Shown: piece by piece, positions 4,968 through 30,774 of the stretch
How positions within the stretch are numbered: the first letter of the stretch is position 1
Layout of the letters: the number at the start of each line of letters is the position of its first letter
Source: Syncephalis fuscata
Lineage: Eukaryota; Zoopagomycota; Zoopagomycetes; Zoopagales; Piptocephalidaceae
Direction of reading: 5' to 3'
Assembly: GCA_025786725.1 (NCBI GenBank)
Contig: JAHLTZ010000012.1
Coordinates: 310,001-374,000, forward strand
DNA length: 64,000 nucleotides
Made by a program: the position numbers and the translations under genes
Notes under the pieces: model-generated
Told to the model about the DNA's origin: nothing
What the model saw: the letters and a program-made list of their open reading frames with translations, nothing else
Databases searched by the model: none

Positions 4968-7900
4968 CTATAGACTCCACGCGGGGGCCACCATCTTTAG
5001 GTGGCGTTCGACGTCGAACGCCATTTTATTGATGTGGTCCCAGGTATAAATTTGCCTCAGGCCTCTCTGGCCTTCGGCGTTTGTTGCCGGACCTTCTTGT
5101 GGTTCTGGTTGACCTGCTATTTGTGTGTCGGTACGTACTGTTTTCCATCTTCCTATTGCTTCGTCCACTTGCTTGCATCTTGTCTTCCATATCTTTTTCC
5201 ATACAAAGTCCAATGCCGTCTTTGTTGCTGTTTTTATTAGTTCTCTTCTTTCTTCTTCGCGTACCCCCTCTCTTTTCATACTGTATAGTGTTTGTGGGCT
5301 CACCAATCCTAATAGAAATCCGGTGTTGCTGATTGGCTGATCTGGGACAATAGATTCAGCCACCTCCCCCACATTTAACAGTCTCATTGGCGGGTCTTTT
5401 CTCGATCTTCTTTCATTTATCCACTCCACCTTTCTTCTTGTCATGTCTTTAATTTTATCTCTTGCTTCTTTTTCCCTATCTAGTCCGTTTCCTTCACACT
5501 TCACTATATGTCGCCACGTCTCTACTTCTCCACTACTACATCTGCAGCACATATTAGTTCTATACCTCTCCTTACACCACTTATTTTGCCTTTCTAGAGT
5601 TGGCAGTATACCGGCTGCCATTTTTAGCGCAAACTCTCTTCTTTTCATCTCTATTTGATACTCTTCCTTACTCGTGTCTTTTTCCGGTCTCACCCCCTCT
5701 CTTATAGTTAGCTCCACTTTTGTACTGGTAAGTAGTGTTTGTGCTAACTCCGGGTGTTGTCTTCCTATTAGTTCTTTTAATGCTCTTTCTTGCCTTACCT
5801 TACTTTGTCGTTTAACTGCACTACGTGGCTCCAGTAGTGTGTTTAATTTTGACATGAGCATGTTGTGCTGATGTACTGGAGCTGGTGACGTGTTCAGCGT
5901 CCATCTTGGTACTGCTATTATTGTAGTAGCTGCCGCCTTTTTCGCTTCCTTGTCCGCCAGCTCGTTCCCTCTTGTACCTACATGTGCGCGTGTCCACTGC
6001 AACTCTGTCTTACCACTTCTCTGTCTTGTCGTTGCTGCTATCCTTTCCCATATCTTGTACGTTGGTGTGGCTCTTCTTTTGCTGTCTAGCCATGGCTCTG
6101 GCTTCAGCACGTACTGTCGCCACCACTCCTTGCACGTCATTGAGTCGGTTATCAGCTTTAAGTCACGGTCCGGTGGTGCGCAGCATAGCGCATGCGCTAT
6201 TGCCATCGCCTCCACCATGTCTGAGTGGCAATGTGGACCGACATACTTTCCTGCTGTAATTGCCAGTGGCCGTGTACCCGTACTCGCTATTGCTATTGCT
6301 GCGTATCCACCTTTACTATTCTTACCTGTTGGATCTATCACCGATCCGTCTGTCCAGATGTTTACTTCGCCACTGACGTGGCTTAGTGTCTCTGTCCAGT
6401 CGTACTCGTTTCCTTCTGCATCTACACTCCTCTCTCTTAAATTTTCCTCTGTGAAGTCTATAGGCTTTCCTCGCCTTTCCCTTATCCCCTTTGCTATCCG
6501 CACTACTTCCATAGCTTCCCTTGCGCATACCTGCCATTCCTTTTCCAGATCTTTGTACCATTTTGGTGACCCCGCCCTTGGTGCCTTCCTATATGTGATT
6601 TGGGTGTATGTCTTTAATTTTGGCGTGCCGTCTGCTGCTATTTGCATTACATCTTTCAGTCTGGTCAACTTAAAGTGTTTGACGGCTTTTCGAATATCTC
6701 TGTATGTTGTTGGTGTCACAACATCTTGTATCAATACTTCTTCTACTTCGGTCGGCAGTTGTTGTTCTCTGCCGCATACCACGCTGATTTCTCGCTCGTG
6801 TAGTCGTTGAGCTATGTGCATCGCGTATATCCGTCTTGTTTCCCTTCTTTCCACGTACTTGTTGTATGGCGATCTAGTGCTGTATGTTGTTGTCCTTACT
6901 GCTTCTTCCTGCGCTCTGGCCGTCTCCCCTAGCACTCCTGGACTATCCAGTCTACGCAGTAGATCTCCGATCTGGCTTGCGTCTATCGCGTCGCGTGTTC
7001 TGGCTACATTCATACCATCCGTTGACCATATTAGCGTGTTTGGTGCTGACTTCGCCATATGTGCTTTTCGTTTAAGTATTTTTAGCCATTTTCGATCTAG
7101 TGTCGTACACTGTGTTTCTGACATAGTACTAGCTGCTGTTTTGTGTACCACAGCCGGCACTATTACTGCATTGATAATGTAAGCTGCTGTATTACTGTCT
7201 ATTGCTTTTCGGTGCAATAGTTTACATGTGTTTTCTACTGCTTTTTCTATTACATCAAACGCTGTTTTGTTGTATCCATCTAGCGACAGCCAGCAGCCTA
7301 GTATTCTAAATGGTACATGTGGAGGCTGTACTATTCTAACTAGGCCCACTTCTCCCTCAGCCAACCGAATTGGTTGTAGCTCCGCGTTTACTGCTTTGCC
7401 AGATGATGTTTTGGCTGTGTGTATCGTCTTTCCACAGTGCACTTCTATGTCGTGTAGTTCAAAAAATGAGCGACAGATATTTGCTAGTTGTTGGAGGTTC
7501 GCTCTGTCTTCCGCCAGTAGTGTCAGGTCGTCTGCGAAGGCACCGTGGGCGATTTTTACCGGTGTGTTGTTATTTCCTATACTTCTCATTACATACCCAT
7601 GTTCTGAATCTTTCAGTTTTGTTAGTAGCGGGTCGTAGAACGTCAGCCATAATAATGGTGAGTTTACTTCTCCCTGGTCCAGTCCGCATTCCGGATGATG
7701 TACCTCTGTTTGCCCGTGTGCTGTTAGTACTGTTGCTGTTCGTTGTTCGAATATATTTGCTAGTAAGCCTATATAATGTTCTGGTATTTTTAGCCGTCTT
7801 AACGAACACTCTAAGCTATGCCATGATACTGAGTCATATGCTCGTTTCACATCTAGCAACAGTACTTCCAGTCCACGTTCATGGCAAATGGAATCATCCA

Positions 7901-10091
7901 TGACCGCTCTCAGTACCTGGACAAAGTCCGTCGTTCTATTGCCTCTTGTAAAACCGAAGTTACCCCCCTGTAACACTCCATTTCTTTCCATTACCTCTTG
8001 CAGCCGTCTCGTCACTATTATTGAGTATAGCTTGCGCATTGTCTCCAATAATGTGATTGGCCGTAGCTGCGCCATGTCTCCACACCAATTTGCCGTTTTT
8101 GGTATTGGTATTATTACCCCATGCTTCCAAGCTGTTGGTACATCCCCTTTTTGCAAACACGCTGTAATAATTCCCGCCATCACCTGCTGCAATTCCCCAC
8201 ATGCTTTCTGTAACATTTCATTTACCACTCCTGATGCCCCTGGTGCTTTGTTTTTTGGCAGACTCTTTAACACTGCTGTCATCTCTTCTATCCCCACTGG
8301 TTCCATGAGACCGTTATAGATGGCAGGGTCGATGCTCTCTATTGGTCTATAGCTACCTGACCATGTTGGGTGGTTTAGCGGGCTAGTTCCACGTCTCGCA
8401 CCCATCCACTGAGTGAAGTAGTCTCGAGTGAGTCGGCGTACCTCTTCTGGCCGGTCCTCGATAGTCAAGTCATTGGTCTGTACCACTGTTATTTGCTGTA
8501 GTGGCTTATTCTTTTCCAAAACTCTTTTCAACACCTCTTTTAAGTCAGTGTGAAACAGTAGGTTTCTTTTCATCGTCGCGCCGCGTATTTTTTCGTTTAG
8601 TTCTTTTTTCTTCTCTCTGTTGTACTGATTGCTTAGTCTCGTCTTCAGACCTTTGACCTCGTCTACCGAGGCATGCTCTTCTAGTTGTCCCGCCAGCTCC
8701 ACCAACTGCGTAACCGACGGATGACGTCTTGCTAGTCGCTTTATTCGCTCACATCTTTGTCTTGCCGATAAATCTTCTTTTTGTATTTTAGCCAGACTTT
8801 TTGTCGTCTGCAGAACCGGATGTAGACTCAGCTCATCACTGGGCCTATTCCTTCTTATCACGATATGTGGCAGCTTGTCATCAGCGCACAGCACCAGGTG
8901 ACTGACGATTGCTCCCCATAGTCGATCTAAGTATGGAATACTGTTGTGTTCAAGCTGGCCGTCTTCTTTTGTCTGCTCCACCGCATCTTTAATTGTTCTA
9001 TTCCAACCTATAGCTGTTGCTGAGGTGTAATTCATCCAATCCACTTCTGTAGCCTTTCGTCTGTTTAATATTTTGCGCGGCAGTTGTTGGCATAGCCTGT
9101 CACCTGCCCGCTGGAATATTATTGACGTGGTCAGTTCCAACACTATCGGTTGATGTGTGCTATATATTCCTTGGTTTATTTGCTGTCCCGTCGTTCCGCT
9201 CCCCTCTTCGTCTTCTATTCCTACCCCTGATACCATATCCGCTAGCGTATCTGTTGTCAGGAATAAGTCTAGCCTGGCGCGCGCTACTCCGTTCTCTCGT
9301 TGCATAGTGTTTGTGTACTTGTATATGTCTGGGTACTGTCTTCTCCAGACATCGACCATACTTCTTGTTTCCATCAGATACTCCAGCATACTTGACTCTG
9401 CTCTTGTATCTGTGTACCCTTGTCGGTCCAGCCATGGCTGTGGGACGGCGTTGAAGTCGCCTCCTATCACTACTTCTGCTCTTTTCTGGCGCGCTTGATC
9501 CACCCATTTCTTCAACTCGGTCAGCATGCGATTGGCTGCACTCGGATTGCTTCTTCCCTTGTTTGTTGGGTACAGAAGCCCGACTACCAGCAGTCCCCTT
9601 TCCCGGAATGCCAGTCGTATGCCAATCATTCTGTTGTTTACTGTGACTACTTCTTGTATGTGCTTCTCCCACTCAACCTTTATCAGTATTGCTACTCCAT
9701 AAAAGTTTGCGTGGCCTCTTTGTGTTGACCTTTCTGGCGCACCTGCCGTCTTTAGGATGTATCTACCTTTGATTCCAGTTTTGTTAGCTATTTCTTTTTC
9801 TATACTTTCCGTCCAACGCGTTTCAGTTAGTATTATAAAATCTAAGTCCAGCTTATTCAACGCTGTCCATAGTAGGTCCATCTTGCTGCCTGTTGTTGCC
9901 CCTGTGACGTTCCAGTGTATAAATCTCATTTTCTCCGGTCCTGGCCTCCGTTCTCTATAAAAGTTAGAACTTGTACCCACAAAGAGCTGGCTAGTGTCCC
10001 TGTAGTCGTTATTTGATCTATTATTGGGTCTATTATTATTAGTACTATTTACTGTATTGATATTATTTAATGTATTAATATTATTATTCAT
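4968..10091 (-). CDS. LINE ORF2: endonuclease, reverse transcriptase, RNase H
   Basis: A single open frame of 1,707 codons. The first ~54 residues are Asn-rich and low complexity. The endonuclease proper begins at Met55 (MRFIHWN) and shows ILTETRW, GGDFNAV near residue 210 and YSTHQPI near 313. The reverse transcriptase shows LDVKRAYDSVSW, GLDQGEVNSPLLW and the catalytic AFADDLTLL near 851. RNase H follows at roughly 1245-1370 with TDGSV, a conserved E, TDSMTC and RAHVGTRGNELADKEA. A CCxC...H...C zinc motif (CCRCSSGEVETWRHIVKC) lies near 1513-1530. All core catalytic motifs are present. The Asp that usually precedes the endonuclease His (SDH) is replaced by Thr (STH). The frame has no stop or shift over more than 5 kb. 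Confidence 0.96.
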   Translation of the reverse strand: MNNNINTLNNINTVNSTNNNRPNNRSNNDYRDTSQLFVGTSSNFYRERRPGPEKMRFIHWNVTGATTGSKMDLLWTALNKLDLDFIILTETRWTESIEKEIANKTGIKGRYILKTAGAPERSTQRGHANFYGVAILIKVEWEKHIQEVVTVNNRMIGIRLAFRERGLLVVGLLYPTNKGRSNPSAANRMLTELKKWVDQARQKRAEVVIGGDFNAVPQPWLDRQGYTDTRAESSMLEYLMETRSMVDVWRRQYPDIYKYTNTMQRENGVARARLDLFLTTDTLADMVSGVGIEDEEGSGTTGQQINQGIYSTHQPIVLELTTSIIFQRAGDRLCQQLPRKILNRRKATEVDWMNYTSATAIGWNRTIKDAVEQTKEDGQLEHNSIPYLDRLWGAIVSHLVLCADDKLPHIVIRRNRPSDELSLHPVLQTTKSLAKIQKEDLSARQRCERIKRLARRHPSVTQLVELAGQLEEHASVDEVKGLKTRLSNQYNREKKKELNEKIRGATMKRNLLFHTDLKEVLKRVLEKNKPLQQITVVQTNDLTIEDRPEEVRRLTRDYFTQWMGARRGTSPLNHPTWSGSYRPIESIDPAIYNGLMEPVGIEEMTAVLKSLPKNKAPGASGVVNEMLQKACGELQQVMAGIITACLQKGDVPTAWKHGVIIPIPKTANWCGDMAQLRPITLLETMRKLYSIIVTRRLQEVMERNGVLQGGNFGFTRGNRTTDFVQVLRAVMDDSICHERGLEVLLLDVKRAYDSVSWHSLECSLRRLKIPEHYIGLLANIFEQRTATVLTAHGQTEVHHPECGLDQGEVNSPLLWLTFYDPLLTKLKDSEHGYVMRSIGNNNTPVKIAHGAFADDLTLLAEDRANLQQLANICRSFFELHDIEVHCGKTIHTAKTSSGKAVNAELQPIRLAEGEVGLVRIVQPPHVPFRILGCWLSLDGYNKTAFDVIEKAVENTCKLLHRKAIDSNTAAYIINAVIVPAVVHKTAASTMSETQCTTLDRKWLKILKRKAHMAKSAPNTLIWSTDGMNVARTRDAIDASQIGDLLRRLDSPGVLGETARAQEEAVRTTTYSTRSPYNKYVERRETRRIYAMHIAQRLHEREISVVCGREQQLPTEVEEVLIQDVVTPTTYRDIRKAVKHFKLTRLKDVMQIAADGTPKLKTYTQITYRKAPRAGSPKWYKDLEKEWQVCAREAMEVVRIAKGIRERRGKPIDFTEENLRERSVDAEGNEYDWTETLSHVSGEVNIWTDGSVIDPTGKNSKGGYAAIAIASTGTRPLAITAGKYVGPHCHSDMVEAMAIAHALCCAPPDRDLKLITDSMTCKEWWRQYVLKPEPWLDSKRRATPTYKIWERIAATTRQRSGKTELQWTRAHVGTRGNELADKEAKKAAATTIIAVPRWTLNTSPAPVHQHNMLMSKLNTLLEPRSAVKRQSKVRQERALKELIGRQHPELAQTLLTSTKVELTIREGVRPEKDTSKEEYQIEMKRREFALKMAAGILPTLERQNKWCKERYRTNMCCRCSSGEVETWRHIVKCEGNGLDREKEARDKIKDMTRRKVEWINERRSRKDPPMRLLNVGEVAESIVPDQPISNTGFLLGLVSPQTLYSMKREGVREEERRELIKTATKTALDFVWKKIWKTRCKQVDEAIGRWKTVRTDTQIAGQPEPQEGPATNAEGQRGLRQIYTWDHINKMAFDVERHLKMVAPAWSL

Positions 10092-10208
10092 TTTTTATAT
10101 TTATTATTTTTTGTCTTATTATTATTTTTAAATGTTTTAAATGTTTTGTTATTCTTATCTTATTATTTTTAAATATATTAATATTTTTTGTCTTATTATT
10201 TAATCTAT

Positions 10209-10416: not shown

Positions 10417-11760
10417 TTAGTTCTGGCCGGGCATTTCTGCCTGACTCCACTTACTCTGCCCTGCCCCCATTGCTTGACTTGTTGGACTGTTGACTGCAAA
10501 CGTGTTTATACTCATTTGCGTTGTCTTTTTTGGCTTTAGTTGTCCCAGCTGCTTTAGTCGTTCAGCTGGTGTGTGTGTCGCATCGTCCATTTCCATGTCG
10601 TTTTCATTGCTGTAGTCTTCTTCTGTTTGGTGTTGACTTGTCATCTCTACGTCTTCTCCGTCTTCTACCTCTACCTCTCCCTCTTCTCTCTCTCCCATTG
10701 CTGGCTCATCTTCCAGCGCCATTCCTTCTTCCATGTCACACACCATTGTCTCTACTGCTCCTTCTTCCGGCTTTTTGGCTGCTGCCGCTACTATGGCTAG
10801 CTGCTTCGCTGTCTTCTCTAGCTCTTCCGTTTGGCGTCGCGTTTTCACACCCCCGCTAGCTAGATTTATTCCTGCTACTGGTCTTGTCTTTCTTTGTCTT
10901 CCCTTCTTTGCTGGTGGTGGTAACTCTTGTTCTTCTTGTTGTTCTTGTTCTTCTTCTTCTACTACTACTACTGCTACTGCTACCTCTCCTTCTTCTCTTT
11001 CTTCTTCCTCCACCATTTCATTTTCTTCGTCTTCGTTCACATCTGTTGCTTCTGGCGTTTGCTGTTCTTCTTGTTGCTTTTCGTGTTCAGCTGTCACTGT
11101 ATTGTTGGCTGGTGCTGTGTTTCTCTGCTGCCAGCTTCCCGATGTACAGTCAACTGCGATATGTCCCACCATGTGGCACCTAAAGCACGCGTCTCTTCTT
11201 CCGATCTTCAGCATCATCGCCCCCACTCTTATTCTTGTCGGTATTTTCTTCTCGTCTGCTTCGACTTTACACACTACTATTGGAGACTCTAATACGCAGT
11301 CATAGAATCTCTTTTCTAGTCTGTGTATCGCCCAGACTTTGCTGTTTGGCCCCAATTCTTCTCTTAATTTTTGTGCCACGTGCTCCAACTCTGTTGCCGC
11401 GTCCACCCCTATCACTTTCAGTGGTATTGGTGCTGGCCCTTCATAGCTTCTTACTTTGATGTGCTCTTCTCCAATATAAAAGCCTTCTCTCACCATCAAA
11501 TTTACTTGTTGTTTGGAGAATAAGCTAAACACATATTCCCCTGCTGCATTATCAATACTGTACTTGATTTTTTTTCCTTCTTTTAATTTCTTAACAATCG
11601 CCTGCGCGACTTCTGCTATTCTGTTAACATTTGTCATCTGTACCCCGATACAATGCTTCAATACTCTTTCCTTTCTTAATTTCTCCGCTTCGCTTTCCAT
11701 CGTTTTCACAATGTTGTTTGTTACTTTTTCTGAGTAAAGCTGACGCTGCTGGGTTGTCAT
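10417..11760 (-). CDS. LINE ORF1: Gag-like nucleic-acid-binding protein
   Basis: An intact 447-residue product starting at MTTQQRQLYSEK. The open frame extends upstream only through a GTG that lies inside the target-site duplication, so this ATG is the sensible start. The N-terminal half is a basic Gag-like domain ending in one CCHC zinc knuckle (CFRCHMVGHIAVDC). The C-terminal half is disordered, with long Glu runs, a basic patch (KKGRQRKTRP) and Met/Gln-rich ends. In related LINEs this protein coats the element RNA. It ends in ordinary TAA-type context before the A-rich linker. Confidence 0.9.
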   Translation of the reverse strand: MTTQQRQLYSEKVTNNIVKTMESEAEKLRKERVLKHCIGVQMTNVNRIAEVAQAIVKKLKEGKKIKYSIDNAAGEYVFSLFSKQQVNLMVREGFYIGEEHIKVRSYEGPAPIPLKVIGVDAATELEHVAQKLREELGPNSKVWAIHRLEKRFYDCVLESPIVVCKVEADEKKIPTRIRVGAMMLKIGRRDACFRCHMVGHIAVDCTSGSWQQRNTAPANNTVTAEHEKQQEEQQTPEATDVNEDEENEMVEEEEREEGEVAVAVVVVEEEEQEQQEEQELPPPAKKGRQRKTRPVAGINLASGGVKTRRQTEELEKTAKQLAIVAAAAKKPEEGAVETMVCDMEEGMALEDEPAMGEREEGEVEVEDGEDVEMTSQHQTEEDYSNENDMEMDDATHTPAERLKQLGQLKPKKTTQMSINTFAVNSPTSQAMGAGQSKWSQAEMPGQN

Positions 11761-11819
11761 TTTCTTGATGTCTTTTTCTTCTTTTTTTCCTTTGAAAAAA
11801 TATAAATGGAAAGAGTTTT

Positions 11820-11838
11820 TAGGTTGCACTGTATATTA
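11820..11838. repeat. LINE target-site duplication, right copy
   Basis: Identical over 19 bases to 4773-4791. It marks the 5' boundary of the minus-strand element, so ORF1's leader is only 59 bases long. Confidence 0.93.
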
Positions 11839-12320
11839 ATTGATTATACACTAATTATATGATATGTACTGTGTGTATCAACAACTTAACATTAATAGGA
11901 TGCAAGTGAACCCGCAAGGCAATTATTTAGGCGCTAATCAATTGTTCTGCACTGTTTTTTAGCAATAATTTAATATTAATAGGCAGTAAGTAACATCATT
12001 CGTATTAGTCGCCTGTGCATTAATTGCACTTTGCCCACCTTGTGTATCGACAACTCTAGATTAATAGTAAGTGGTTTTTTATGTTACTCGAATATAAACC
12101 AATGACATACTATGTAATGTGTGTATTAATAATCTAATACTAATACGCAGTATGTAATATTGCATATTAATTGCCTACGCATTAACTGCACGACATAAAC
12201 TGTACGCATTTAACAATATTAATAGCTGGCAAGTAGGATTACGTAATGCTAATTCATTCACTAATGATATGGCATGTTCTATTCGCTTCTAACAATTAAA
12301 CATTAACCAAGTAAATATGT
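11820..12320 (+). repeat. Intron-like ~83-bp repeat array, plus orientation
   Basis: At least five further units follow the LINE. Each has a 3'-splice-like end ((c)taat...taatag), exactly three bases, then a 5'-splice-like start: tag|GAT|gcaagt (11899), tag|GCA|gtaagt (11982), tag|TAA|gtggtt (12067), tac|GCA|gtatgt (12146), tag|CTG|gcaagt (12225), aac|CAA|gtaaat (12307). Boundary spacing is 83, 85, 79, 79 and 82 bases. The unit resembles the one at 27.9-28.8 kb read on the other strand, for example a shared tgtgta...ctaata...attaata stretch. Two donors begin with gc, an accepted alternative splice start. Whether it is transcribed is unknown. Confidence 0.7.
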
Positions 12321-27190: not shown

Positions 27191-27925
27191 GATCAAGCGT
27201 GTGTTGTTTATACGTACGTGTTAATGATTAAAGGATTCGGAACAAAAAGTATAAACAAGTAAATTTATTCATTTATATGAGCTACTAAGTCATCACCATC
27301 TTTTTAATTGGTTGTTGTTGATATCTAAGTAGGATTTTACTTTGAATCCCACAGTTTGAGTTCCAAAGCAAAATTCGTTTTAATTGAAGTCATGCTATTA
27401 TGCACAACATGGTTATACTGCTTCCTATTAAAATGTAGCTAATAAATTGATTTAAACTATGGAGTTCTAGAAAACAAAAATGCATAATAATGGAATATTG
27501 TAAGGTATTGTTTGCTGTCAGCTTTAATATTAAAAACAACAATTTTTAGAATCTAACATCACCGCTAAGTTCCGTTTTACGATCTTATCCCGAATTAAAT
27601 CTAAATAGGATGAAACTATATTTATTACTACAAGTTTACATAGATAAATGAATTTAGATGCTAGCTTGTTGGTAATAAAATGGTGCCATTGATCAAAAGC
27701 TGAATAAACCAGAATATTGATTGAAACTTGATATATAAATGCACTAAACGACAGTTGTCGAATAGTCTTGCTTGTTTGCCGAATATATTTTTAAAATATC
27801 TTGAGCTAGCAGTTTAATTGCACCACTAATCTCAATACTTTGAAAATATTGGTCATTCTATGATTATAAATAGATATAGCACATAGTGTGGAATTAATGC
27901 ATAGGTCGATATTATAGAGTGCTAA
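27191..27925. other. Intergenic stretch, no gene recognised
   Basis: About 735 bases of AT-rich sequence with no coding character. Splice-like signals near its right end (gattag at about 27830 on the minus strand) could be a further, degenerate part of the adjacent array. Confidence 0.4.
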
Positions 27926-28800
27926 TTACCCCTTATTAATACAAATGATTAAATACGCACGTTATGTGTCATATGTTTAGAATAAAATTAGTTAGTATGC
28001 AGTACTACTTACATTCTATTAATATAGATTATTAGACATACACACAGAGTATAGCATGTAATTAACATATATTTGTTGCTATATATATTGTCATTTACCA
28101 GGTATTAATATAAATTGTTCAACATACACAATATAATGCATGTAACTATTATATAGCTTGTTGATGTATAATTCCATCCACCAGCTATGCATACAAATTA
28201 TTAGACATGCACAATGAATGAAATGCGATTAGTGTATGACTTTTTGGTACATAATGTCATTTACCAGCTATCGGTATAAATTATTAAATACGCATGATAC
28301 ATTACATGTAATTAATATATAATTGATTGATATATACTTCCACTTACCAGCTATTAACACAAATCATTAGACACGCACATTAAATGAAATATAATTATTA
28401 TATAATTAGTCAATATGCAATACCACCTACCACCTATCGATATGAGTTATTAAGTACATATGGTGCATCGCATGTAATTAGTATATGACTAATTAGTATA
28501 CAACGCTATTTACCAACTATTAATATAAATTATTAACCACACGTGTTGTATAACATATGTTTAGCATACAACTTTTTAACATAAACTCTCACTTACCTCC
28601 TATTAACACAATTATTAGGCACATATAGTACATGTCATACAATTAATATGTAATTAGGCAATACACAATGCTACTTACCAGCTATTAATACGAGTTATTA
28701 GACACATATACGAGGAATAACGTATAAGCAATGTATGAGTAATTAACATGAAATTACTTACGATCTAATAGTATCAGTTTGATAATACAATAGTATTTAA
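27926..28800 (-). repeat. Regular 83-bp array of intron-like units, minus orientation
   Basis: Eleven successive boundaries lie at 27929, 28012, 28098, 28181, 28264, 28347, 28430, 28513, 28596, 28678 and 28761, a spacing of 83 bases in nearly every case. On the minus strand each boundary reads like a 3' splice site (ctaat...attaatag), then exactly three bases, then a 5' splice site (gtaa/gtag/gtgg). Most acceptors keep tag; one is tac and one taa. In transcription order the three-base inserts are ATC, CTG, GAG, TTG, GTG, CTG, CTG, CTG, CTG, AAT, GGG. The splice-like edges are better conserved than the interior. A related array in the opposite orientation lies at 11.8-12.3 kb. This is either a minisatellite with intron-like units or a train of single-codon micro-exons. 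Confidence 0.85.
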
Positions 28801-28859
28801 TTAGTTAAATAGCTAACTATTGTAATTGCAATGTATTAAGTCTAATTGAAATTCTTTTC

Positions 28860-29640
28860 ACATCACAGAAAAAGCATGCGGTGGTAGGACGAATATCCTA
28901 TGCCCTGATGGTGTGAAAAATATTAAAAAATGCTATAGAAGTTACTAACAGAAACATATCCATTGTTCTATCCAATAAACACACTAAGCAAAAGGAATTA
29001 GCATGCATCTTCATCCCAAACATTTTACAATACAACCTCACCGGTCAAAGCGCAACACTCCCAGATTACCTTGATGTACTTCACAGTCACTACAAAGGCA
29101 AAGCCGTTTCGGCACGCTGTTTGACGAATGACATAATCTAGCTAGGCTTTAAACCAAGCAAAAATCTTACAAATTTTATATGAATTGACTTCAAGTACTA
29201 ATCAGAAAAATATCAGTATTCCGCGTCTGCATCTGCAACAAACATATCGTATGCATTACGGTAACTGAACTGGCCGTTTCAGGTTAAGAAATCTTTGCAA
29301 AAGCACTACGTAACCAATTCAGCCAATACGGCAAGATCGCCGACATTAGATGCCACTATTACCACAAACCAGCTGGATATATTTGTTTGCTGCAGGATAT
29401 CTGGATATTTCAGAAAATACGAAGGCCATCCATAATTTGACCGCACCCTCAAAGGCAAACTCTGAAAAAATGATTGGCCAACAACCAATACAATCACCAG
29501 CGTATGAAGCACAAGAGCCAGGTAACACAGCGCTTACTCTCCTAACAAAAACCAAGCTTAAGGTTTTTATGCTGGATAGCAAGAAAAATATAAAAGCACC
29601 ATTAAAGGCTGGCGGAAACATATGCAAAATATTATAGAAA
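28860..29640 (+). pseudogene. Decayed coding relic, probably of a transposon
   Basis: Plus-strand frames with protein-like composition run for 40-80 codons between stops. One reads IFIPNILQYNLTGQSATLPD, another ALRNQFSQYGKIADIRCHYY followed by HKPAGYICLL. The second has the look of an RRM-like fold as found in some retrotransposon ORF1 proteins, but the match is weak. Stops and frame changes are too many for homopolymer errors alone, and no start, introns or flanking repeats were found. Function is not assignable. Confidence 0.35.
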
Positions 29641-29837
29641 AAGCATCAGGCAAGCAATCAAAAGGCTAGTTAGACTAGCTTTTGTAAAAACATAACGGCC
29701 AGGCCCGACTCGAATGGAATATAATGGTCCATTTATGTTGGAAAGGCATTGCCAACATTTTCAAAAGATAAGTATGGCAAGGCAGTGATCATTCGAATTT
29801 TTTAAAATAGAAAATAAACAATGTAATTTCAACGTAC

Positions 29838-29931
29838 CACGACGGATTAGAGCTGATTTGGCATCCACCATGGCTGTACTGCCCACAAAAGCCACGACGA
29901 AGATGCAGACGATGACAATAGAAAGTTTCAT
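29838..29931 (-). CDS. Signal-peptide exon of a small secreted protein (partial)
   Basis: ATG opens a frame for a classic secretory signal: MKLSIVIVCIFVVAFVGSTA, then MVDAKSALIRR. It ends at a phase-1 donor gtacgt. Read through without splicing, it would give 56 residues with a stop at 29761. The architecture is shared with the exon at 57595-57694 (Met-Lys start, IFV-A core, VDA at the expected cleavage site, phase-1 gtacgt donor), which suggests a family. Downstream on the same strand lies the 83-bp array at 27.9-28.8 kb, with the decayed relic in between. What the mature protein is remains unknown. Confidence 0.5.
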
Positions 29932-30774
29932 AGTGATGTTGATTTGTTGAAATAAACAAGTAGAATGGACAATCGAGTGTTTAGTACAAAGTAGATAGTA
30001 GTAAGTATTTACCAGAAAGTAGAATATGGCGATAATACCGCTAGTTATTTGTGTGTATGTTGTGCAAGCTATTTAAGTCTATGTTATGCTGAAATACCAA
30101 CATGTTTTGTTGTATAAAATGTTCATTGTTATGCGATATAAACCAATAGCAATACGTCCATATGGTGGCTCAAAGCATACGTATACCAATGTATCCGTGG
30201 TGTGATAGTATGTAGTCTAGTTCTTTGTTATAACCTGCTTTGTATCTACACATATGGTATGACATATTATCCAGTACATATGTAGTAGGAATTCATATAA
30301 TAAGCTAATTTTTTGTTACATTATTCAATTACATGGGCCAATTCAAACATATTGTTTATTGCCTTTTAACCATATGCATTGCCAATAATAGAACACTGTA
30401 TCCGGCCTTGACATTGTCTATTACTTGGTCGTAAAATGGCGTAGACTGAATAAATAATATATAACTCTAGGTAGAAATAATGCGCTATGCCTGTCAGGCT
30501 ACTTTGATTGGATACGTTCAAAGCTGAATTTATAGCAACAGTCTATGGCATACCAGTTAGTAAAGATCTTGTTATACAAATGATTTATATGATATAAATC
30601 GATTTAATTTAATTTAATAGTGTTAACACAAATAAGGCAATTAAATAAAGCACTTGTATTATTAAAATGGATAGTGTGGCAATCAACAACTATAATAATT
30701 ATAATAATTATAACAACTGAAATGACAACATTTTTATTACTGCTATTACTACTATTATTGTTACTAAAATCATT
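29932..30774. other. Intergenic region between the signal-peptide exon and COG1
   Basis: About 840 bases, AT-rich, with AAT/ATT runs near 30680-30715. A TATA-like cttaaatag on the minus strand (about 30065-30075) lies roughly 135 bases upstream of the signal-peptide start. No further gene was recognised; open frames overlapping the COG1 start are not protein-like. Confidence 0.4.

Follow-up and report, generated by a model that had tools for sequence, protein, structure and literature searches.

What is a tandem array in which every unit resembles an intron and successive units are set apart by just three bases? The question is raised by positions 27926–28800, minus strand, of the 64,000-nt stretch of the Syncephalis fuscata genome analysed here (hereafter the window). 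The initial annotation described eleven boundaries there, each reading tag-NNN-gta or tag-NNN-gtg at 83-base spacing. Re-reading the minus strand returned the same eleven triplets (Table 1), and nine of the eleven boundaries conform to AG-NNN-GTR. The ninth (CTG, 28101) and eleventh (GGG, 27932) are preceded by TAATAC and TAATAA, which lack AG, and their acceptors are therefore broken. Unit lengths along the minus strand are 83, 82, 83, 83, 83, 83, 83, 83, 86 and 83, so that the 83-base spacing stands for eight of ten units, with one of 82 and one of 86. The reverse complement of the edge, YAC-NNN-CTATTRR, occurs 13 times in the whole window against 1.83 expected, a count reached by none of 100 shuffles; five of the 13 matches lie inside the array.

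The array forms the central part of a gene on the minus strand, which runs from 29931 to ~27593, lies mostly beyond the limits first drawn and belongs to a large S. fuscata family. It very probably encodes the mature part of a secreted peptide, split at one codon's worth per exon. The evidence is the DNA sequence of one genome, in which the anatomy, the exact 3-nt exons, the reading frame, the constraint on splice edges and some matches to intronless paralogs can be read; production of RNA from the arrays and its splicing are predicted.

Table 1 Features of the window gene copy (positions in the window)
Feature	Position	Strand	Remarks
TATA-like element	30068..30079	-	GACTTAAATAGC; conserved in family, upstream of exon 1
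Exon 1, 94 nt	29838..29931	-	MKLSIVIVCIFVVAFVGSTAMVDAKSALIRR + one base G (phase 1); donor GTACGT
Intron 1, ~1.07 kb	28765..29837	-	contains insertion
Insertion of ~1 kb in intron 1	about 28831-29822		single copy in genome search
Array as first delimited	27926..28800	-	tandem introns
Micro-exon 1	28762..28764	-	ATC
Micro-exon 2	28679..28681	-	CTG
Micro-exon 3	28597..28599	-	GAG
Micro-exon 4	28514..28516	-	TTG
Micro-exon 5	28431..28433	-	GTG
Micro-exon 6	28348..28350	-	CTG
Micro-exon 7	28265..28267	-	CTG
Micro-exon 8	28182..28184	-	CTG; weak donor GTGGAT
Would-be micro-exon 9	28099..28101	-	CTG; acceptor AC, broken
Micro-exon 10	28013..28015	-	AAT
Would-be micro-exon 11	27930..27932	-	GGG; acceptor AA, broken
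Last exon	27593..27857	-	AA, TGA stop, conserved 3′UTR
AATAAA	27621-27626	-	in 3′UTR of last exon

The first intron of the window copy is far longer than that of its relatives, where it mostly measures 67–74 nt. A genome search for the insertion that it contains found no second copy, and clear terminal repeats, looked for at the insertion, were not found. With all triplets spliced, the copy would encode RR-DPGVGAAAAEWE; without the two triplets lacking AG it would encode RR-DPGVGAAAE, and both versions stop in or at the last exon. The window copy looks damaged and may be decaying.

To characterize the exon size, we searched the 28.95-Mb genome with exact acceptor and donor cores. TTAATAG-N3-GTAAGT occurs 1,992 times, whereas the reversed-pattern control occurs once. 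The same cores are found 16 times with gaps of 0–2 (control, 19) and 45 times with gaps of 4–12 (control, 32), giving 2,053 occurrences over gaps 0–12. A weight-matrix scan from acceptor to next donor yielded 409 exons of 3 nt among 411, and dynamic programming that left exon length free yielded 406 of 414. A third parse, which allowed GC donors (9 of 704) and forced ends and included damaged copies, assigned 3 nt to 610 of 673 exons in 31 chains, a count that takes in misparsed stretches from damaged copies. Nineteen of these chains are not flagged intact, partly through real damage and partly through stretch-end effects or misparses; two of the 12 chains flagged intact, L010 and L014, are nevertheless damaged at the start. 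Since both exact cores flank 245 of the 610 parsed 3-nt exons, the 1,992 exact matches extrapolate to a genome that may hold ~5,000 such exons.

The splice edges are strongly conserved. An alignment of 503 units, taken from 28 arrays, gives 2.00, 1.87, 1.79, 1.73, 1.69 and 1.63 bits for the successive donor positions G, T, A, A, G and T and 2.00 bits for each of the final intron bases A and G, compared with 0.19 at the third position of the triplet; the end-column values are inflated, because local alignment trims mismatching ends, and 357 of the 503 rows reach the last column. Pairwise substitution rates are free of this fault. Pooled over six close pairs (L021/L027 left out), donors changed at 14/924 sites (0.015 changes per site) and the last three intron bases at 5/461 (0.011), compared with 425/7430 (0.057) in intron interiors (p = 1e-9 and 8e-7). 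The edges therefore change 4–5 times more slowly than the interiors. The initial annotation had likewise seen constant edges around drifting interiors, and the genome-wide pattern searches extend its observation. The branch region (183/3216) is no better protected than the interiors. The exons changed at 83/540 sites, a rate partly due to an alignment effect in L017/L018; without this pair, exons still changed faster than interiors (45/394 versus 353/5251, p = 0.001), and in L028/L036 alone triplets changed at 23/60 sites versus 181/995 (p = 0.0005). Faster triplet change would fit diversifying selection on the peptide, but unit gain and loss also contribute. The closest pairs, L021/L022 and L024/L031, show few changes and their rates are uninformative.

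We read 28 arrays in the fetched loci, two of them in the window. A recognizable exon 1 resembling MKLSIAVVCTIVVAFVATTAMVDAKPALARR plus one base G lies beside 26 of the 28, a few of these exons being damaged. The two arrays without exon 1 are L029 and the one at window positions 11811–12297 (plus strand), a degenerate relic of intron units with four nhmmer hits, located beside retroelement-like frames; L029 resembles this relic. Upstream of exon 1 is a conserved TATA-like element, and its donor is GTATGT-like in most copies. Exon 1 encodes a signal peptide, as judged by eye, and a short propeptide, and exits in phase 1, in which each codon takes its first base from the end of one triplet and its other two from the start of the following one. 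In 19 of the 26 copies, exon 1 ends in RR; several long-type copies have KR split by a splice join, and L046 and L061 have it uninterrupted. Downstream, 12 of 17 aligned flanks, read by eye, show AG, two free bases and then TAA or TGA, while L012–L014 have TAG at the stop position; a conserved 3′UTR with AATAAA follows the stop in the family. The last exon thereby requires phase 1, matching the exit phase of exon 1.

A genome search with exon 1 found an open frame of at most 43 residues in 83 of the best 150 of 338 candidates, as would be expected if a donor directly follows exon 1. The conserved first exon as query matched five S. fuscata proteins and a profile search matched 16, all from S. 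fuscata; at the sensitivity of that search the family was not found elsewhere. The five members tested gave no Pfam match at E up to 1. Four of the 16 deposited protein models lie whole in the intronless loci fetched and are identical to their translations; P0004, P0006 and P0009 match fetched loci in part, and the other nine are outside them. The two models of array genes open to comparison, P0004 (L009) and P0009 (L042), are without the 3-nt exons predicted here; gene finders may overlook such exons, yet these two models give no support. P0009, an incomplete model located on the same contig as L042, has APEDDTDVVYMRPGK after exon 1, matching the decoded 9-nt and 33-nt exons, and diverges from the predicted L042 reading beyond that point.

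Several loci show further irregularities. L042 has mixed exon sizes, 9 and 33 nt followed by 3 nt, and is possibly a partly intron-free intermediate. L018, a close relative of the intact L017, contains two 2-nt exons; it is probably a pseudogene, because such single-base losses would shift the frame. In L037, L044 and L015, TTTTATTTT followed by GAGCTT or AAGCTT interrupts the array near the first or inner micro-exons; these look-alike stretches are perhaps a mobile element. Very similar triplet strings occur in two array pairs of the genome (G000), each tens of kilobases apart: C1:476294-478075 and C1:531562-533323, inverted, and C2:226057-228480 and C2:245449-247887, direct. Owing to these similar pairs, the family seems to have spread by segmental duplication.

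In the scheme that we propose, exon 1 would supply the signal peptide and a short propeptide mostly ending in RR, leaving in phase 1. The 3-nt exons would follow, set between spliceosomal introns of ~80 nt, each a tandem copy of its neighbours, and the last exon would add two bases and the stop. Removal of all introns would join the triplets in order into a peptide of about 10–50 residues, cysteine-rich in part of the family, to be released after a dibasic cut. A signal peptide followed by a dibasic site before the mature part is present in the sequence, and such dibasic sites point to processing by a protease of the Kex2 type. In fungi, an intron of ~80 nt that has a strong donor is probably recognized individually. 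As simultaneous binding at two sites separated by 3 nt seems hardly feasible, the introns would be removed one by one along the RNA, the donor three bases past an acceptor becoming usable once the preceding intron is gone. In recursive splicing, adjoining 3′ and 5′ splice sites, termed ratchet points, are likewise used in succession; nothing is left between those sites, whereas three coding bases would be left in S. fuscata.

The family also contains members whose mature part is uninterrupted. Among 20 short loci chosen for long open frames, 15 are intronless, four show the first intron and L047 is ambiguous; L040 and L041 are further intronless members. These share the signal exon and, past the stop, have related 3′ flanks; their mature part is often cysteine-rich. 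Spliced L017, with 48 internal exons and a predicted 84 residues, gives CGTCGTGCCGTCGCGCCATTGGCTAAAAGAG, which aligns base by base near the array start to CGTCGTGCTGTCGAGCCATTGGCTAAGAGAG of intronless L061 through exon 1, micro-exons CCG and TCG, a 15-nt exon and the following triplet, and again around the stop; between this start block and the stop the alignment is poor. L035 decodes to GLEECWACMDECTTIYTTAECRKNNYCAKQCRK and terminates at the expected stop; the related intronless L054 closes with CRKFSCAKDCRE. The decoded L042 product contains CKCQDEDGNCTSC, where intronless L053 has CKCRDDDGYCTSC; one residue from a GC-donor micro-exon equalizes the two lengths.

We compared such matches with those obtained after shuffling exon order. 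In a first test with uncorrected parses (16 genes, 16 intronless peptides, 300 shuffles), shuffles did as well 0 times for L042 and L017, six times for L038 and L015, nine times for L035 and 31 times for L010; the remaining ten genes stood at 38 or more, so that just five of 16 genes were at 9/300 or better. A corrected test compared ten genes with 17 intronless peptides, using 1,000 shuffles each. L042, L038 and L035 scored 74, 61 and 58, above the best of their shuffles (48, 56 and 50; 0/1000 as good in each case), L042 and L038 having been hand-curated beforehand. Wrong phases scored at most 25 in these three comparisons. L017 gave 8/1000, L039 a weak 35/1000 and L010 a non-significant 89/1000, and L036, L021, L024 and L028 showed no similarity to the 17 peptides.

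The intronless members probably arose from spliced RNA via reverse transcription. A tree of exon 1 and 3′UTR from 17 micro-exon and 17 intronless members needs seven state changes, at least three of them forced by well supported branches, and L040 and L041, two intronless copies with upstream sequence, also have the promoter of the other members. Replacement of introns by cDNA would explain the tree changes and the kept promoter in one step each. In plants, APC11 copies lacking introns have been attributed to loss mediated by reverse transcriptase (PMC8831610). The window itself holds one frame with reverse transcriptase, endonuclease and RNase H domains (4968–10094, minus strand); upstream of it, a second frame (10417–11835, minus strand) is ORF1-like by eye, the two resembling a LINE-like element. 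The opposite history, in which the intronless genes came first and each codon was later invaded, at the same phase, by a mobile intron (introner), draws on the sequence relatedness of all array introns and on the occurrence of introners in fungi (PMC4457414). It would, however, require dozens of separate same-phase insertions in each of several lineages, and the forced state changes, the promoter retained in L040 and L041 and the reverse transcriptase gene in the same window speak against it; we regard it as unlikely. Under a reverse-transcription origin, the intronless genes would be natural copies of the spliced product, and because such twins exist the predicted product is exact to the base for some members.

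The order of the exons bears on how they are joined. Adjacent 3-nt exons read in phase 1 produced no stop in 444 joins, whereas 9.75 were expected after shuffling exon order within runs, and none of 4,000 order shuffles was as low; the joins come from 21 of the 31 chains, picked to limit near copies, and are not fully independent because some chains are relatives. An earlier parse gave one stop in 293 joins against 6.28 expected (P = 0.002). The intact subset, 11 genes with 298 of 307 exons of 3 nt (L014 dropped by hand, L010 retained despite its frameshifted exon 1), had been selected by frame and so gives no independent proof of it. The predicted train of single-codon micro-exons that keep the frame is supported by the phase-1 exit of exon 1, the phase-1 stop after the last acceptor, the absence of stops at adjacent joins and the intronless paralogs with matching peptides. 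Each exon does hold one codon's worth, but in phase 1 no triplet is itself a codon. Reading the triplets as codons, in phase 0, conflicts with exon 1 and the last exon, gives a mostly hydrophobic product and matches no intronless gene except in L020 (score 39, versus 24 in phase 1, in the first test); stops alone do not exclude it (0 in 334 triplets in the earlier parse, one TGA in 489 in the later one). Phase 2 gives 38 stops in 444. A noncoding transcript, first suggested by single-base indels in the 3′ flank, was dropped because these indels proved to lie after the stop.

With nearly all exons multiples of three, skips would keep the frame, and alternative splicing could pick micro-exons combinatorially, one gene yielding a peptide library. 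Yet joins skipping one exon show no depletion of stops (13/406, shuffled mean 9.1), a weak test given that just ~3% of skips make a stop. Joins skipping two and three exons gave 10/380 (8.5) and 6/355 (7.8). Full inclusion is thus what selection has seen, and the cysteine framework would break on skipping; we consider combinatorial use improbable. Alternatively, exon 1 might be spliced directly to the last exon, the array being a long decoy intron or relic and the product a signal peptide with a few residues. That join also keeps the frame, from phase 1 to NN-stop, and many copies are damaged, but selection on adjacent triplet joins, conservation of the internal sites and the resemblance of decoded cysteine peptides to intronless ones make this highly improbable. 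A plain minisatellite or satellite carrying splice-like motifs by chance would be tandem, ~83-nt, dispersed and variable in copy number, as the arrays are, but should spare no position, as the initial annotation had argued, and keep no frame, and it is practically untenable in the face of edges conserved 4–5 times more than interiors, a gap of exactly three at 1,992 places, stop avoidance dependent on exon order, fixed flanking exons and coding matches to intronless paralogs.

The architecture predicted here, a secreted-peptide gene with its mature part split into 3-nt exons, recalls the micro-exon genes (MEGs) of schistosomes, of which it appears to be an extreme new variant. In MEGs, a long 5′ exon is described as carrying the signal peptide for the most part, followed by middle exons below 36 bp, of which 26 of 33 in one set are divisible by three, and a long 3′ exon (PMC4671649); exon lengths of 3–81 bp are also given (PMC10526429). 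In both systems, secreted proteins of a parasite are encoded with small symmetric internal exons: the S. fuscata signal peptide, judged by eye, lies mainly in the longer 5′ exon, and central exons are below 36 bp and mostly divisible by three. In contrast to MEGs, the S. fuscata internal exons are nearly all exactly 3 nt, the introns are ~80-nt tandem copies (most of them 70–84 nt, varying largely within 63–94 nt) rather than up to 5 kb, and intronless paralogs are present. The organisms are unrelated, and the likeness is drawn at the level of architecture. Aphid bicycle genes likewise form a family of highly divergent putative effectors whose many small internal exons are nearly all in one phase, but average about 17 exons that are small yet above a single codon (PMC9168663); they are not known to have intronless twins or tandem introns. 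A 1-nt exon of APC11 and a 3-nt exon of homothorax indicate that the spliceosome can include exons of 1–3 nt (PMC4674806, PMC7392893), and a very small exon is also described in a fungus (PMC12940212); such cases are reported as one per gene, as opposed to dozens in a row. Introner-like elements also form families of near-identical introns in fungi (PMC4457414, PMC9860276), but are described as inserting in many genes genome-wide (PMC9860276), whereas the S. fuscata introns lie head to tail and, in 26 of the 28 arrays read, beside exon 1 of one family. Among the matches listed in the open-access literature, none describes a comparable run of dozens of 3-nt exons, and none reports micro-exons or introns in Syncephalis. 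If spliced as predicted, these genes would be more finely divided than any other protein-coding genes known to us.

Syncephalis belongs to the Zoopagomycotina and lives as a mycoparasite (PMC10386755). From this lifestyle and the size and variability of the family, and solely from these, we infer a role of the peptides against host fungi. Because the introns are alike, unequal exchange between them would add or remove whole codons without a frameshift, and could speed peptide change. The fuller picture combines ~5,000 one-codon exons (by extrapolation), stepwise splicing, introns acting as a recombination track by which single residues are gained, lost or exchanged in frame, diversifying peptides used against host fungi, and intronless copies that record the products; it is plausible but tentative, and we place it slightly short of even. 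Such genes may be hidden elsewhere, as gene finders and read aligners struggle with 3-nt exons. If correct, our reading would set a lower limit on how finely proteins divide into exons and provide a natural test of the spliceosome with acceptor and donor three bases apart, dozens of times per RNA. It would also bear on the multiplication and loss of introns and on the diversification of parasite effectors.
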